Source: a virus. From it: a stretch of 26,066 nt of DNA. How positions within the stretch are numbered: the stretch's first letter is position 1; each line of letters opens with the position of its first letter. The stretch covers positions 1-26,066 of IMG/VR virus record IMGVR_UViG_3300046011_001910. The stretch is one strand, 5' to 3'. This document shows, in pieces, positions 2,888 to 24,791 of this stretch. Both the position numbers and the translations under genes were made by a program. The notes beneath the pieces were generated by a model. That model made no database searches. It was not told the DNA's origin and saw only the letters and a list, made by a program, of their open reading frames with translations.

Positions 2888-3349
2888 TTATTTCAAACTT
2901 TTCAACAATTTTGGGTATTCAACGTTCCAATCATTTAAGAAAACATGTTGAGCTTGTTTTAATGTAATCTTACCAGAACATAACAATTTATGTACAGCAT
3001 GTTCGATTACATCTTTTTGTTTGGCATTATCTAATGATTCGGGCCATAAATTATGTGGATCTGTTGGATGACCGGAAACGCTTAACGGAATCCTATGGTC
3101 TTCTTGATAATGTTTAGGATTTGTATCTGAATATCCATACTCATGAATCTGTTGGATTTTCAATTTATTGGTATAATTTGATGATGGTCTAATCTTAGTG
3201 GTAAATCCTGGAACACAAACTGTCTGATTCAAATTTTCCTGCGATACGTTTGTATTTAACGATCCTGGAGTTAATTCTCTGTTTGGTTCAACAGTATCCG
3301 CTGATACATTAGTTGTAATTAAAAGGAATAACATAAACAGTAATTTCAT
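2888..3349 (-). CDS. Secreted HNH-type nuclease
   Basis: A 153-residue protein with a Sec signal peptide: MKLLFMLFLLITTNVSA, predicted cleavage near A17-D18. The mature part has the arrangement of small exported HNH proteins of bacteria: VCVPGFTTKIRP (45-54), YTNKLKIQQ, then EDHRIPLSVSG (83-93) and DPHNLWPE (97-104), giving D84-H85 and N100 as likely betabeta-alpha-metal residues. H117 or H120 could be the third position. C45 and C124 could form a disulfide, consistent with export. The start overlaps the stop of the GIY-YIG gene (ATGA), so the two nucleases are translationally coupled. Role is unknown: extracytoplasmic degradation of DNA from lysed hosts or from competing phage are both possible. 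Family call is solid; role is inference. Confidence 0.75.
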   Translation of the reverse strand: MKLLFMLFLLITTNVSADTVEPNRELTPGSLNTNVSQENLNQTVCVPGFTTKIRPSSNYTNKLKIQQIHEYGYSDTNPKHYQEDHRIPLSVSGHPTDPHNLWPESLDNAKQKDVIEHAVHKLLCSGKITLKQAQHVFLNDWNVEYPKLLKSLK

Positions 3350-3765
3350 AATTTCACGTGTAATTGATGGACTCTACATTGTATCTGGCGATTCAAGTAT
3401 TCATCAGATTCCAACACTCTACGATCCATTTGTTCCCTTGCTTCCAAATAAGACATAGTCCCTAGATTACCACATAAATGTAATATCTCTCTGATGTAAT
3501 TATCTTCACCTAATTGTTCTATTTCCAATTTCAAATCATCAGAACTTGAAAAGTAAGTCTTCCAATCAGATTCAGATTTCTTCTTCACTCGTTTCTTCTT
3601 TTTGGTTCCATTTTTCAATGTAACAGTTTTCATTGAAGAAGTGAATGAATAGAATTGTTTCTTACCAACGTATTTTCTGTTGTTAGATTTATTTGTGATA
3701 AGATATACAAATCCTATTTTACCTTCTGGTATATCTGTTAATTCGATTCCTTGATACAACCACAT
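3346..3765 (-). CDS. GIY-YIG endonuclease, SegE-like
   Basis: A 139-residue protein resembling the putative SegE-like GIY-YIG nucleases of T4-type phages. The GIY part is GFVYLITN (18-25) and the YIG part is KYVGKKQF (31-38). A lysine-rich stretch (about 51-63) and SDWKTYFSSSDDL (66-78), a segment typical of this subfamily, follow. E91 or nearby acidic residues could be the metal ligand. Such proteins are usually homing-type nucleases that nick or cut DNA at related loci; the short length and lack of an obvious separate DNA-binding domain are normal here. It overlaps the HNH gene by 4 nt and follows the GNAT-like gene by 53 nt. Whether it is mobile cannot be told from one genome. Confidence 0.7.
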   Translation of the reverse strand: MWLYQGIELTDIPEGKIGFVYLITNKSNNRKYVGKKQFYSFTSSMKTVTLKNGTKKKKRVKKKSESDWKTYFSSSDDLKLEIEQLGEDNYIREILHLCGNLGTMSYLEAREQMDRRVLESDEYLNRQIQCRVHQLHVKL

Positions 3766-3818: not shown

Positions 3819-4481
3819 TTATTTGTGTGCAATTAAAACAAATCTTCTACCTTTACTGTTTGGTAACCAAATCTTATCGTCAGCCAAATTCTTTGTATCA
3901 TAATTGATTACTTTACCAGAATCATCCTTTATGAAATCATGTTCTATTGTATCATAAACAAATACATTTAATGAAGGAACTATTGATAACTTCTTCCATA
4001 ATCTTTTACCGCCTTCATATTGAACGTTATCGGAAACAATAACGTATCCATCATCCATCAATGCTTGGTATATAGAAGAAGCTAATCCAAGTCCTTCTAA
4101 GTTGGGAACTGTTGCTACAATTGATATTTGTAATTGTTTCTTATGTTCCAATTCCGCTGGTAAATTATCAATCAAAGGGTGTTTAAAATGAACTAGACAC
4201 GCAACATAATATATTTTAGCTCCGTCTTCTTGCCGTATAGTTGGTATATAAACGCCAGCCATCCCTTTTGTTTTTGTCAATAAAATTGTATAATCACCAA
4301 TAACACTCGAATTTTTTACAGTTTTAATCAAATCAAATCTTCTTTGAACTGTTTCATCTGTTATATATCTACCAGCATCACCTTCGGCCGATATTGTAAT
4401 CCAAGCAGACTGGTCTTTCGTTTCTGGTCTATGTTCAGGCATTTCTAATATCATCTTTCTAATTTCTGCAAATGTTTTCAT
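3819..4481 (-). CDS. GNAT-like phage protein (paralogue of 19253-19843)
   Basis: A 220-residue protein with the outline of a GNAT acyltransferase. After a beta sheet region (YTILLTKTKGMAGVYIP, IYYVACLVHF) comes LGLASSIYQALMDDGY, in the place of the acetyl-CoA pyrophosphate loop and helix, then VIVSDNVQYEGGKRLWKKLS, in the place of the C-terminal G-x-x-LW-x-x-L block. The classical R/Q-x-x-G-x-G/A loop is not well preserved, so activity is uncertain. The N-terminus MKTFAEIRKMILE resembles capsid-targeting peptides of T4 internal head proteins (MKTYxEFIAE), with a possible I-x-E prohead-protease site. A clear paralogue lies at 19253-19843. The start follows AAAGGGGAA. First gene after the 4531-4564 terminator, in a three-gene unit with two nucleases. 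Confidence 0.55.
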   Translation of the reverse strand: MKTFAEIRKMILEMPEHRPETKDQSAWITISAEGDAGRYITDETVQRRFDLIKTVKNSSVIGDYTILLTKTKGMAGVYIPTIRQEDGAKIYYVACLVHFKHPLIDNLPAELEHKKQLQISIVATVPNLEGLGLASSIYQALMDDGYVIVSDNVQYEGGKRLWKKLSIVPSLNVFVYDTIEHDFIKDDSGKVINYDTKNLADDKIWLPNSKGRRFVLIAHK

Positions 4482-7867: not shown

Positions 7868-8449
7868 TTAGTTGAAAAGATTTGGAGCAACTTCTGTCAT
7901 TTGACGTTCAATTTCCTGCGCAACTAATCTGATTTCATATTGAGCTTCTTTTGTGTTGCGCAATTTAATGAAATCCAACCATGCTTGGAAATTACCAACA
8001 ACATTTAATGAGGTCGGCGAGAAATTCGGAAGCACCATTCTAGCGTCTTCTTTCTTTGCACCTAATGATAATAATTTATCATATTGTTCATAAGAATGTT
8101 CTAATGATTCTTTTAATACAATAGATGCTTCTTCAGATGTTTCAAAAAATGGCGGAACTTCTAATTCCAAGAGTTCGGATACATCTGATTTGGTGTAACG
8201 TTGACTCTTTTGAAGGAAGTCAAGATGTTTGGAACGAACCATTTGATGAGAACAGACTCTTGAGATGTCAGAGATTCTGAAGACAGCATGAGCAAAACGT
8301 AATACCGCAAGATGACCTTTTGATGAACAATGTTTGGCACGTTTTACATTTTTATCAGGATCTGATATATCGGCACCATAACATTCTCCTGCTACAATAC
8401 CTAAGAATTCTTCTGCGTTTGGTGTAACAAATAACAATTCAACTTTCAT
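7868..8449 (-). CDS. thyX: Flavin-dependent thymidylate synthase with an altered signature motif
   Basis: A 193-residue ThyX-family protein. The family makes dTMP from dUMP with methylenetetrahydrofolate, FAD and NADPH. Diagnostic parts: LRFAHAVFRISDISRVCSHQ (residues 50-69), the region just before the ThyX signature, and DFIKLRNTKEAQYEIRLVAQ near the C-terminus. The signature RHRx7SxR reads R72-S73-K74-HLDFLQK-S82-Q83-R84 here: spacing and the last S-x-R are intact, but the invariant His is Ser and the second Arg is Lys. These residues contact dUMP and FAD, so chemistry could be changed (see findings). ATG 8449 follows AAGGGAAAT. The start of the next small gene is 9 nt away. Confidence 0.9.
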   Translation of the reverse strand: MKVELLFVTPNAEEFLGIVAGECYGADISDPDKNVKRAKHCSSKGHLAVLRFAHAVFRISDISRVCSHQMVRSKHLDFLQKSQRYTKSDVSELLELEVPPFFETSEEASIVLKESLEHSYEQYDKLLSLGAKKEDARMVLPNFSPTSLNVVGNFQAWLDFIKLRNTKEAQYEIRLVAQEIERQMTEVAPNLFN

Positions 8450-19252: not shown

Positions 19253-19843
19253 TTACATTGTAATTTGTTTATTCCTTAAAATCAATCTGATATGAGATAA
19301 GTCTTTATCATAAGACCATACTCGAGTATCGAATTCCCAATCGTTAGACCCATGATATAATGTAACATCAGTTTCAACGATTTTGTTTTCTTTCAAATCG
19401 ATAATGTCGACGCAAACATCTTCCATTCTGGATAATTTAGTCCATAATTTTCTGGCACCAAAGAATTGTTCCTCGTCGCCTAAGATAATCATATCATTAT
19501 TCTTAACAAAATGTGTATACATTCCAGCAGCGATTCTAGTACCTTGACATTTCGTAACAACCCTTACTCCGTCGACATTATATACGTTGTTGTAATGTAA
19601 AATCGAACCTCTGTAATCTAATTCAATTATACCATACGTTCTAAATTCAGTAATTTGTCTTCTTGTACAAAATTTACCAAGACGATACATTATGTTAGAT
19701 TTTGATTCTAACTTACGAATTTCATATTTCCATCCCTGTACATTTATTTCTTCAGGAATAGGATATTTGTCCTCTATAATTTGAAGAGAAACATTTTGAA
19801 AATCAATATCATCAATCCAGTCACCAACTCTAGCAATCGACAT
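19253..19843 (-). CDS. GNAT-like phage protein (paralogue of 3819-4481), last gene of the modification operon
   Basis: A 196-residue protein; ATG 19843 (MSIARVGDW) has AAGG seven bases upstream, and a TTG two codons earlier is less likely. The segment GTRIAAGMYTHFVKNNDMII, then GDEEQFFGARKLWTKLS and VCVDIIDLKENKIV, aligns block by block with LGLASSIYQALMDDGYVIV, SDNVQYEGGKRLWKKLS and LNVFVYDTIEHDFI of the 3819-4481 protein, so the two are paralogues. Both have the outline of a GNAT fold with a poorly conserved acetyl-CoA loop. This copy lies downstream of the aGPT-PPlase-like and DNA-kinase-like genes; GNAT enzymes are known to decorate hypermodified thymines, so a tailoring role is possible but unproved. 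Confidence 0.55.
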   Translation of the reverse strand: MSIARVGDWIDDIDFQNVSLQIIEDKYPIPEEINVQGWKYEIRKLESKSNIMYRLGKFCTRRQITEFRTYGIIELDYRGSILHYNNVYNVDGVRVVTKCQGTRIAAGMYTHFVKNNDMIILGDEEQFFGARKLWTKLSRMEDVCVDIIDLKENKIVETDVTLYHGSNDWEFDTRVWSYDKDLSHIRLILRNKQITM

Positions 19844-19855
19844 TTCCAACCTTAT

Positions 19856-20015: not shown

Positions 20016-20561
20016 TTATTTTTCCGAAAGAATTGAATTGATAAAATCTAAGATTTTAGATTGTTCTTCTTTTGTCTCATTTTTGAATTCTGTGATATAT
20101 TCAGCTAATGAAAAATTGTTTTGGATATTTGAGATTTTCGTTTCTCTACCGTTCAAGAATTGGTCAGATTGATTAGATCCTCTATCCGCATATCGTTGTT
20201 TCAACAAATCTTGTTTACATTTTAAGACAACGATATGAAATTCAATATCAGGTTGTTCTGACATCAATTCATATAGATTCATATTTGTTAATCTATCACC
20301 TTCCATCAAAATGTTTGATTCTGTGACCTTGAACCATTTAACAAATTCTGGTTGAACAGCCAGACTCAACTTATCTGTTCCAGGAAACGTCTCACCTTCA
20401 TCATATTTCCCTAAGATATACAAATCTAAATCTTTAGAGTATTCAGAATCCACTAATTTGGCAGGTTGTGTTCTTTCCCAAGTGGACGATTTCATGAATT
20501 CTCTGAACAGAGTAGATTTACCAGTTCCTGGAACCCCACATACAGCAATAACTTTTCTCAT
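20016..20561 (-). CDS. P-loop kinase, 5-hydroxymethyluracil-DNA kinase-like
   Basis: A 181-residue P-loop protein; ATG 20561 shares a base with the previous stop (TAATG), preferred over an upstream TTG. The Walker A motif is GVPGTGKST (9-17). LYILGKYDEGETFPGTDKLS (52-71) and NILMEGDRL (88-96) give the layout G-x-Y...GTD-x-LS...EGDRL, which I associate with the small phage kinases that pyrophosphorylate 5-hydroxymethyl-dU within DNA. That reaction is the first step of thymidine hypermodification in phages such as ViI and phiW-14. The adjacent gene encodes the predicted next enzyme. If this call is wrong, it is still a small nucleoside or polynucleotide kinase. Confidence 0.7.
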   Translation of the reverse strand: MRKVIAVCGVPGTGKSTLFREFMKSSTWERTQPAKLVDSEYSKDLDLYILGKYDEGETFPGTDKLSLAVQPEFVKWFKVTESNILMEGDRLTNMNLYELMSEQPDIEFHIVVLKCKQDLLKQRYADRGSNQSDQFLNGRETKISNIQNNFSLAEYITEFKNETKEEQSKILDFINSILSEK

Positions 20562-21469
20562 TATATTTTCTCGCAATCTAATTCTGTTATATTCATGTCA
20601 ATCAATTTTAATCTATTACTCAATAGATTATCAACTGAACCTTTCAATTTCTCTGCTATCAGAGAATCATTATTATACTCTAATGCAGCTCTTAATTTAA
20701 GAACTTTATCACCTTTGTTTAATGTCCCTTTAAATGTCTTCCTATAATCGCAAAAGAATGTCTCAATTTCAGTGACGCCAATACATCTATTTGGATTATG
20801 AGGACATTTATATTCTTTGAAGAATTCCAATTCCGATAAGAACAATTCATCTAACAGAGGATCTTGTCTAATCTGTTCCGATGAACGTTTGGAGATAGAC
20901 GATCCTGTTCTAACCAATTCAAATCCCGATAATGAACCCTTTGGTATAGTCTTCTTGAAATCATCCGACCAGACTGGTTTGTAATTCATGTCAAATATAG
21001 ATTCAACCATATCAGCAACTTTGAACGCAAAGTATTCACCAAACGTAGGAATCATCTTAGCGGATTCAAGTGATGTCTTCCAATCAACAGTATGTTCTAA
21101 TACATTATCAATCCATTGTTCAGGAGTTTTAATCCTCATTTTATCTATCTGAGTGTTATAACTTCTTGATTTAACATTTGTTTCTCTTGAAGCTACATCA
21201 ATTCTGTCTTTACCAACTTTTGCTTCCTTGAACAACATTCTCACATAATCATAGTATTCATCGTCTGGTATAGAACATAATTTAATGGAATGTTTTAAAT
21301 CATATACCATTAGATTAGAGAAGATTAACCGTTTCTTCTCAGTGTCCGATAATTCAGAATTTCTAATCATTGTATAGATGGGATCCACTTCACCCAGAGC
21401 AATATGTTGAAATGAAAACTTCCTGAATTCATCTAATAATATATAGACATCATCAAATAGATTATTCAT
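20561..21469 (-). CDS. Amino acid:DNA transferase-like protein (aGPT-PPlase family)
   Basis: About 302 residues from ATG 21469; GTG 21478 gives three more (numbering below from GTG). It matches the alpha-glutamyl/putrescinyl-thymine pyrophosphorylase family, also called amino acid:DNA transferases, which replace the pyrophosphate on 5-PPmdU in DNA with an amino acid or polyamine. Blocks: [11 protein letters not shown] (29-39), [12 protein letters not shown] (54-65), [13 protein letters not shown] (131-143), [18 protein letters not shown] (144-161), and a C-terminal Cys region CPHNPNRC...[15 protein letters not shown] (225-251). I recall this order (DP-x-Y, YD, W, G-x-[WY]-x-AFK-x-[AD], ET-x-x-CD[FY]) as typical. 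It overlaps RNase HI by 8 nt and the kinase by 1 nt, so the pair is co-translated. Confidence 0.7.
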
Positions 21470-24065: not shown

Positions 24066-24791
24066 ATGAAAGCATTATCTATTGGTATCAACAAATACAA
24101 CGTAGCACCTCTGAGAGGTTGTATAACAGATTCTAATGATTTAACAACAGAATTGATTGAAAGGGGATTTGATGTATCGAGGTTGTTAGACGAACAAGCA
24201 ACCAAATCAAACATTATTGAAAAGATGCATCAATTATTGTCTGAATCCAAAACAAAATTCATTTTACATTATTCTGGACACGGTTCACAGATCCCATGTT
24301 CAAATGGTTCGGAAGAAGATGGATTGACTGAAATCCTATGTCCATTCGATTTAATCAATTCAGACGGTTCATGGACATCCAATTATATCACAGATGATGA
24401 AATACAACAATTGTTCTCAGAGTTTCCTGATATTCATATAGAAGTTATTCTTGATTGTTGCCATTCAGGAACCGCAACTAGAGATATTAAACCAACATCC
24501 ATTACTCCTAGATTCATACAATCTCCTGTTATAAATTCATCTAAGAATATTCCATTCGGAGTATCTAATGATAATGTAATCTGTTGGAGCGGATGCACCG
24601 ATAATCAGACGGCAGCTGACTCGTTCATCGACGGGAAATACAGGGGAGCATTTACCACAGCATTTTTGACTGCTTCTGGTAACAGAGAAATAATGTTTAA
24701 GAATATTACGGATTACATGATTAAGAATGGATATGAACAACGACCAGTCTTAACTTGTACAGATAAACAAAGGACAGAATCAATGTTCTAA
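24066..24791 (+). CDS. Metacaspase-like cysteine protease (caspase/C14 fold)
   Basis: A 241-residue complete caspase-fold protease, the only plus-strand gene right of 2845. KALSIGINKYNVAPLRGCITDSNDL (2-26) is the typical first strand and loop of metacaspases. Catalytic H72 is in HYSGHGSQ (68-75) and catalytic C132 in ILDCCHSGTA (128-137); YITDDEIQQL (107-116) and YRGAFTTAFL (192-201) match the conserved acidic and core strands. There is no prodomain, long linker, signal peptide or membrane segment: it is a bare p20-p10 unit. Metacaspases cut after Arg or Lys, often Ca2+-dependent. AAGGAG precedes ATG at 9 nt. It has its own terminator (24794-24826), like a phage moron. Possible roles: counter-defence, proteolysis of a host factor, or timed host death. 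Confidence 0.88.
   Translation: MKALSIGINKYNVAPLRGCITDSNDLTTELIERGFDVSRLLDEQATKSNIIEKMHQLLSESKTKFILHYSGHGSQIPCSNGSEEDGLTEILCPFDLINSDGSWTSNYITDDEIQQLFSEFPDIHIEVILDCCHSGTATRDIKPTSITPRFIQSPVINSSKNIPFGVSNDNVICWSGCTDNQTAADSFIDGKYRGAFTTAFLTASGNREIMFKNITDYMIKNGYEQRPVLTCTDKQRTESMF

Follow-up and report, generated by a model that had tools for sequence, protein, structure and literature searches.

The locus described here raises the question of what two overlapping genes do for the virus that carries them, and of which base in the viral DNA their products would act upon. The window, i.e., the whole stretch of DNA that was analysed (26,066 bases), is an entire virus record. On its minus strand the gene order is RNase H, the amino acid:DNA transferase (ADDT) gene and the kinase gene (Table 1). 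The 3′ end of the RNase H gene overlaps the ADDT start by 8 nt, and the ADDT/kinase junction reads ATATAATGAGA, so that one base is common to the TAA stop and the ATG start. The pair had previously been described, in a reading made from the sequence only (the sequence-only reading), as two co-translated genes with a 1-nt overlap and characteristic motifs; the shared base bears out the overlap, and the quoted motifs are present in both translations, those of the kinase being GKST, GKY, GTDKLS and EGDRL. The pair is also encoded in three longer IMG/VR viral contigs, G001 (234,735 bp), G002 (249,362 bp) and G003 (149,447 bp), with identities to the window protein of 100 %, 83 % and 100 %, respectively, for the ADDT and of 100 %, 70 % and 100 % for the kinase. 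Because of these three contigs, and because the positions of DPxY, GxYFxxKxAD and ETxxC are invariant across 17 aligned ADDTs, the pair is beyond chance: the window ADDT and kinase genes are real. Very probably, the products of both contribute to joining an amino acid to one of the bases in the phage's own DNA.

Table 1. Positions of the genes discussed, in the window and in contig G001
Feature	Sequence	Coordinates	Strand	Details
ADDT gene	Window	20561-21469	(-)	302 aa from ATG 21469; alternative 305 aa from GTG 21478
Kinase gene	Window	20016-20561	(-)	181 aa from ATG 20561
ThyX gene	Window	7868-8449	(-)	Pfam Thy1, 6.3e-42
Second ADDT gene	G001	198167-199372		3.6e-9
TET1 gene	G001	199503-200873		TET/JBP profile
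TET2 gene	G001	203369-204730		TET/JBP profile

Judging from sequence comparison and a modelled fold, the first gene of the pair is an ADDT, an identity which the sequence-only reading had already put forward. Its product matches the Pfam ADDT profile PF18724 at 3.1e-5 (24.2 bits, the curated cut-off being 26.2 bits), and its match to deoxyhypusine synthase (0.093, Pfam) is at chance level. A phmmer comparison aligned residues 19-260 with PDB entry 8z2m, a phage glycinyltransferase, at 1.3e-5, and the ETxxC and GxxxxFKxAD motifs are common to both proteins. Subfamily HMMs were derived from 95 sequences, each 250 aa or longer, reduced to 28 with five loci omitted as copies; the window ADDT scored 94 bits (2.6e-30) against the HMM of 11 ADDTs of hmU phages, from which the window protein itself was left out, and 6.7 bits against that of 15 ADDTs of TET operons. 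Structures were predicted from 17 ADDTs and 32 TETs with ATG starts chosen by script, and the AlphaFold2 model of the window ADDT (17 sequences) reached a pLDDT of 79 and a pTM of 0.81. Foldseek returned three matches below 0.001 for this model, all of them PaMx11 gp46/PUGT, the 5-PmdU glycinyltransferase (8z2m, 8z2n), which it matches in fold over 254 residues (VIA Z 22.4 against 8z2n) and in the two motifs; however, the sequences are only 16 % identical, and the amino acid of PaMx11 is glycine according to the entry title. The next entry follows at Z 7.3; at this level (Z ~7) the matches are to 8-oxoguanine glycosylases and a protein of queuine salvage. The window ADDT is thus predicted, from sequence and model, to act on 5-phosphomethyl pyrimidines in DNA, putting an amino acid in place of the phosphate. 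As to the leaving group, the PDB titles of the glycinyltransferase name phosphomethyl, and pyrophosphate is reported for phiW-14 in the accessible part of PMC5977210.

The second gene had been assigned to a 5-hmU-DNA kinase. The P-loop kinase part of this assignment stands, whereas membership in the HMUDK family does not: a Pfam search up to E = 1 gave no hit to HMUDK (PF18748) for the protein, which instead passes the cut-off of Ploopntkinase3 (PF18751; 5.9e-7, 29.6 bits, cut-off 27) and matches AAA_18 at 7.2e-9. No PDB entry matched at 0.01. The kinases of Cr30 and of Melnitz phages match PF18751 under the cut-off, and the kinase of P26218, which is flanked by an ADDT and a thymidylate-synthase-family gene, likewise matches PF18748 under the cut-off (2.5e-5). 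As these Pfam labels are thin, the two kinase groups are told apart chiefly by their neighbour genes. The closest named relatives of the window kinase are those of Caulobacter phage Cr30 (42 %) and of four Melnitz phages (33 %). The kinase is predicted to phosphorylate a 5-hydroxymethyl pyrimidine in DNA.

The neighbourhood of this kinase family was surveyed from four aligned kinases, which gave at least 482 confirmed relatives in viral contigs (599 candidates), the best 80 of the 482 being kept. In these 80 loci, which represent the nearest relatives and many of which are short, a local HMM search found a TET gene in 39, an ADDT gene in 68, a ThyA-type synthase in none and a C5-methyltransferase in one. 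The kinase relatives sit 3′ of the TET and ADDT genes, and among the 27 of these 80 loci with more than 7 kb upstream, an ADDT is present in all and a TET in 26; the TET-less locus is that of G002, whose TETs lie elsewhere in the contig. The control loci of HMUDK kinases showed the opposite pattern, with a synthase in 21/22 and a TET in 0/22; an ADDT was present in 19/22. After thinning to below 90 % kinase identity, TET genes occur in 28/39 loci vs. 0/13 controls (Fisher p 4e-6) and synthases in 0/39 vs. 12/13 (Fisher p 6e-11), p values which serve as guides since the loci are related. At the level of whole records, a TET was found in 10/10 with the window type of kinase vs. 0/10 chosen via HMUDK or the hmU type of ADDT, phiW-14 included. 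The reverse search, from a TET alignment, gave a weaker link, with the kinase in 8 and an ADDT in 9 of 21 loci, many of which are short. In DLP6 and C48C1, a TET of the window-type clade occurs without an ADDT and without this kinase, which, like the reverse search, counts against the pathway proposed below.

G001, G002 and G003 each encode two TET/JBP dioxygenases that score above cut-off. Judged by shared genes, the window ends at position ~196182 of the near-identical G001, which puts a second ADDT and a TET some 2-3 kb past the window's end in that contig; G002 has its second ADDT (3.3e-16) clustered with both TETs, ~75 kb away from the ADDT-kinase pair. The TET profile has one weak match in the PDB (7n7v, 0.4). 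The 26 PDB entries closest to the TET1 model (pLDDT 85) are all TET, NgTET1 or CMD1 structures, with TM scores of 0.28-0.45 normalised by query length, and H299, D301, H352 and R366 of TET1 are invariant in 32 aligned sequences; we take the first three to be the iron ligands of an HxD...H motif and R366 to be the 2OG arginine. The sequence-only reading had expected a dUMP hydroxymethylase elsewhere in the genome, an expectation at odds with the three longer contigs, in none of which the PF00303 profile detects a ThyA-family gene, the two TET/JBP genes being found instead. This gene content suggests that the base is first oxidised within finished DNA by a TET-type enzyme, as opposed to being incorporated as a ready-made modified nucleotide. 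In the records of Cr30, DLP6, HTVC112P and S-CBWM1, the TET/JBP genes are annotated as SNF2 DNA repair protein.

The reading that we favour, and hold to be probable on balance, is a variant route of oxidation in DNA, most likely at thymine, followed by phosphorylation and amino-acid transfer. Ordinary DNA would be made first, with dTMP coming from ThyX; the TET/JBP-type dioxygenases encoded just past the fragment would then act on the finished DNA and hydroxylate a pyrimidine at its 5-methyl group, most likely converting thymine to 5-hydroxymethyluracil. The hydroxymethyl group would be phosphorylated by the kinase, and the phosphate or pyrophosphate would be exchanged for an amino acid by the ADDT, yielding a final modified base that may block host nucleases. 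Within this pathway, we infer which base is modified, which amino acid is attached, in what order the steps occur and that the DNA is protected.

Cytosine as the substrate is unlikely. A phage C5-methyltransferase would produce 5mC, a TET would oxidise it to 5hmC, the kinase would phosphorylate the latter and the ADDT would add the amino acid. Such a methyltransferase is indeed encoded in G001, ~44 kb from the ADDT-kinase pair, and in G002, ~6 kb from it on the same strand; 5mC could also come from host methyltransferases, and the solved TETs that match the TET1 model act on 5mC DNA according to their PDB titles. However, among 21 whole records the gene is found in three (G001, G002 and Melnitz) and was not found in the other 18, including G009, G015 and G016 (165-171 kb) and the complete Cr30, the completeness of most others not being given; because of these 18 records, thymine is the likelier oxidised base. 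The relatives of the two ADDT kinds also lean to thymine, since both occur in thymidine-modifying phages: the window ADDT is closest to those of hmU phages, and the TET-operon kind has matches at 1e-5 in 376 phage records, of which 162 are from Salmonella phages, and the best among the matches listed bears a note that names phage ViI. The modified base of ViI is a thymidine derivative according to the accessible part of PMC6449724.

The Melnitz-type phages speak on both sides of this question. Their TETs, collected in a search of 71 loci, are accompanied by a methyltransferase in 66, and in 27 the same kinase family as that of the window follows the methyltransferase and TET genes, as the cytosine version would have it; however, an ADDT is found in 0/71. 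The methyltransferase is present in 57/57 loci with more than 1.5 kb upstream, and L224 and L227, two loci of the Melnitz clade scored without it, come from contigs that begin beside the TET. In a tree of 114 TETs reduced to 44 at 80 % identity, in which Cr30 is represented by a TET fragment with a long branch, the methyltransferase-linked TETs form a clade separate from the window-type TETs, on the opposite side of a fully supported branch. The Melnitz-type loci L178-L248, which pair a C5-methyltransferase with an adjacent TET, lack an ADDT and in many cases include a kinase of the same family, are possibly a 5hmC-phosphorylating system in their own right. The methyltransferases of G001 and G002 themselves have SPPC and ENV motifs, and they read GMSV, with no Arg, in the region which we equate, by eye, with that of HhaI Asn-304. 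An Arg at the Asn-304 position of a C5-methyltransferase homologue is the criterion for a CmoX carboxymethyltransferase in the accessible part of PMC12783734, and CmoX-type carboxymethylation was rejected as the source of the handle.

Distinctly improbable, in our estimation, is the presence of two in-DNA pathways in one phage, in which one TET, the hmU-type ADDT and the kinase would produce an amino-acid-bearing thymine, and the remaining TET would work with the C5-methyltransferase and the second ADDT to give a hypermodified cytosine. If true, the genome would contain two different amino-acid-bearing bases.

We give little credence to a modification that starts in the nucleotide pool, in which hydroxymethyl-dUMP would already be formed ahead of replication, its source being a hydroxymethylase encoded outside the contigs, which are perhaps incomplete, or ThyX, with the later steps as in phiW-14. 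Such a route would fit the window ADDT, which belongs with those of hmU phages, and the window has a thymidylate synthase gene that is missing from the sequence-only reading, namely ThyX, identical to the ThyX of G001. This protein reads RSK, as does that of G002, where M. tuberculosis ThyX has RHR, the position of which we take to be the ThyX signature; given this replacement, hydroxymethylation by ThyX is retained among the rival readings. In phage SP-15, one of two Thy1 proteins is proposed to be a hydroxymethyluridylate synthase, according to the accessible part of PMC5977210. However, G001, G002 and G003 each encode exactly one Thy1 gene, ThyX, which would need to do both jobs in all of them; it probably supplies ordinary dTMP, judging from its sequence. 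Moreover, PF00303 is absent not only from the three contigs but also from 20/21 whole records of the wider set, although the same profile does detect the ThyA-family genes adjoining the ADDTs of P26218, MW202557 and nACB2 (53-69 bits). The strong ThyA match of Cr30 (373 bits) is read as an ordinary thymidylate synthase. The TET in 26/27 of the longer kinase loci noted above also stands against this route and is consistent with oxidation in finished DNA. Finally, the absence of any DNA hypermodification, with the P-loop protein serving as a nucleotide kinase or as a subunit of the terminase, and its partner as a repair enzyme resembling DNA glycosylases, is hardly credible: the phrog_800 match of the kinase is labelled terminase small subunit and the queuine-salvage and glycosylase folds come next in the ADDT list, but that label is also borne by the P26218 kinase between its ADDT and synthase-family genes, Z drops from 22.4 to 7.3 after the glycinyltransferase, and the kinase is strongly associated with TET and ADDT. 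The terminase role was rejected as a database label only, and kinases of TET/ADDT systems are annotated in this way.

The families that recur near the kinase in the best 80 of the 482 loci are ADDT (67 loci), a protein with a HELIHF motif 3′ of the kinase (64), TET (38), a class II glutamine amidotransferase (36, with Cys at residue 2 in 34/36 members of the family), a DnaB helicase (30), GNATs (23 and 14), an amidoligase-like protein whose profile score is under the cut-off (15) and a radical SAM protein (6). Some of these recurrent neighbours may tailor the side chain. Of the tailoring enzymes of the relatives' operons (glutamine amidotransferase, GNAT, amidoligase-like, radical SAM), none was found in G001 and only the amidotransferase in G002. 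It lies at L030:17380-18069 (G002 179380-180069; PF13522, 1.7e-8), between TET1 and the second ADDT, and possibly provides an ammonia or amino donor step.

The sequence-only reading had also proposed a GNAT-like gene at 19253-19843, but Pfam gave no GNAT hit at E values up to 1 for the product of this gene (19253-19849). A GNAT role was rejected: the protein has paralogues elsewhere, including 3819-4481, and is unmatched by HMMs of the GNATs from the relatives' operons. The two genes, both on the minus strand, are paralogues of an uncharacterised phage family (phrog_7522, phrog_15502) with more copies in G001 and G002. The window also contains a gene for a caspase-domain protein at 24066-24791 (+) (Peptidase_C14, 1.2e-26; no PHROG match at 0.001) and one for a SegE-like GIY-YIG endonuclease at 3346-3765 (-) (1.6e-32).

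Among known systems, M6, ViI and phiW-14 incorporate 5hmdU, which is then acted upon by a 5hmdU DNA kinase and by alkylamine or amino-acid transfer, according to the accessible part of PMC6449724. The proposed system would share with them the kinase and ADDT steps, the window ADDT being related to phiW-14 gp109 (1e-7). In contrast to these phages, the contigs examined here have TET/JBP genes and no ThyA-family hydroxymethylase, and their kinase belongs to another Pfam family. The cultured phage Cr30, with a complete genome, has a TET, an ADDT and the same kinase family, and no C5-methyltransferase; unlike the window-type phage, it has one ADDT (of the TET-operon kind, unlike the window ADDT), one TET and a ThyA match instead of ThyX. 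The Melnitz-type phages are alike in their TET and kinase family and unlike in the methyltransferase, the lack of an ADDT and the TET clade. In base J synthesis of kinetoplastids, JBP hydroxylates thymine in DNA, and if the thymine reading is right, the TET/JBP step proposed here would be alike. The difference would lie in what follows, i.e., glucosylation in base J, which the part of the source available describes as glucosylated hydroxymethyluracil, and phosphorylation with amino-acid transfer as predicted for the window system.

A 2021 survey (PMC7824862, accessible part) describes TET/JBP enzymes as absent from the jumbo phages characterised so far. The 235 and 249 kb contigs G001 and G002, both above 200 kb, encode two TET/JBP enzymes each. 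Iyer et al. are said to have predicted in 2013 phage systems that start from hydroxymethyl-pyrimidines generated by TET/JBP enzymes, so the idea of a TET/JBP-first route may already be in print. Among the listed titles and abstract openings of the open-licence literature, a TET-ADDT-kinase operon was not found. The characterised thymidine hypermodifications of phages begin with 5hmdU from the nucleotide pool, according to the accessible part of PMC6449724. The viral collection holds 482 or more relatives of the kinase, and since Cr30 is in culture, the prediction can be put to the test. If the TET/JBP-first route is true, the nucleotide pool of such phages would stay ordinary, and the side chain would be built on finished DNA.
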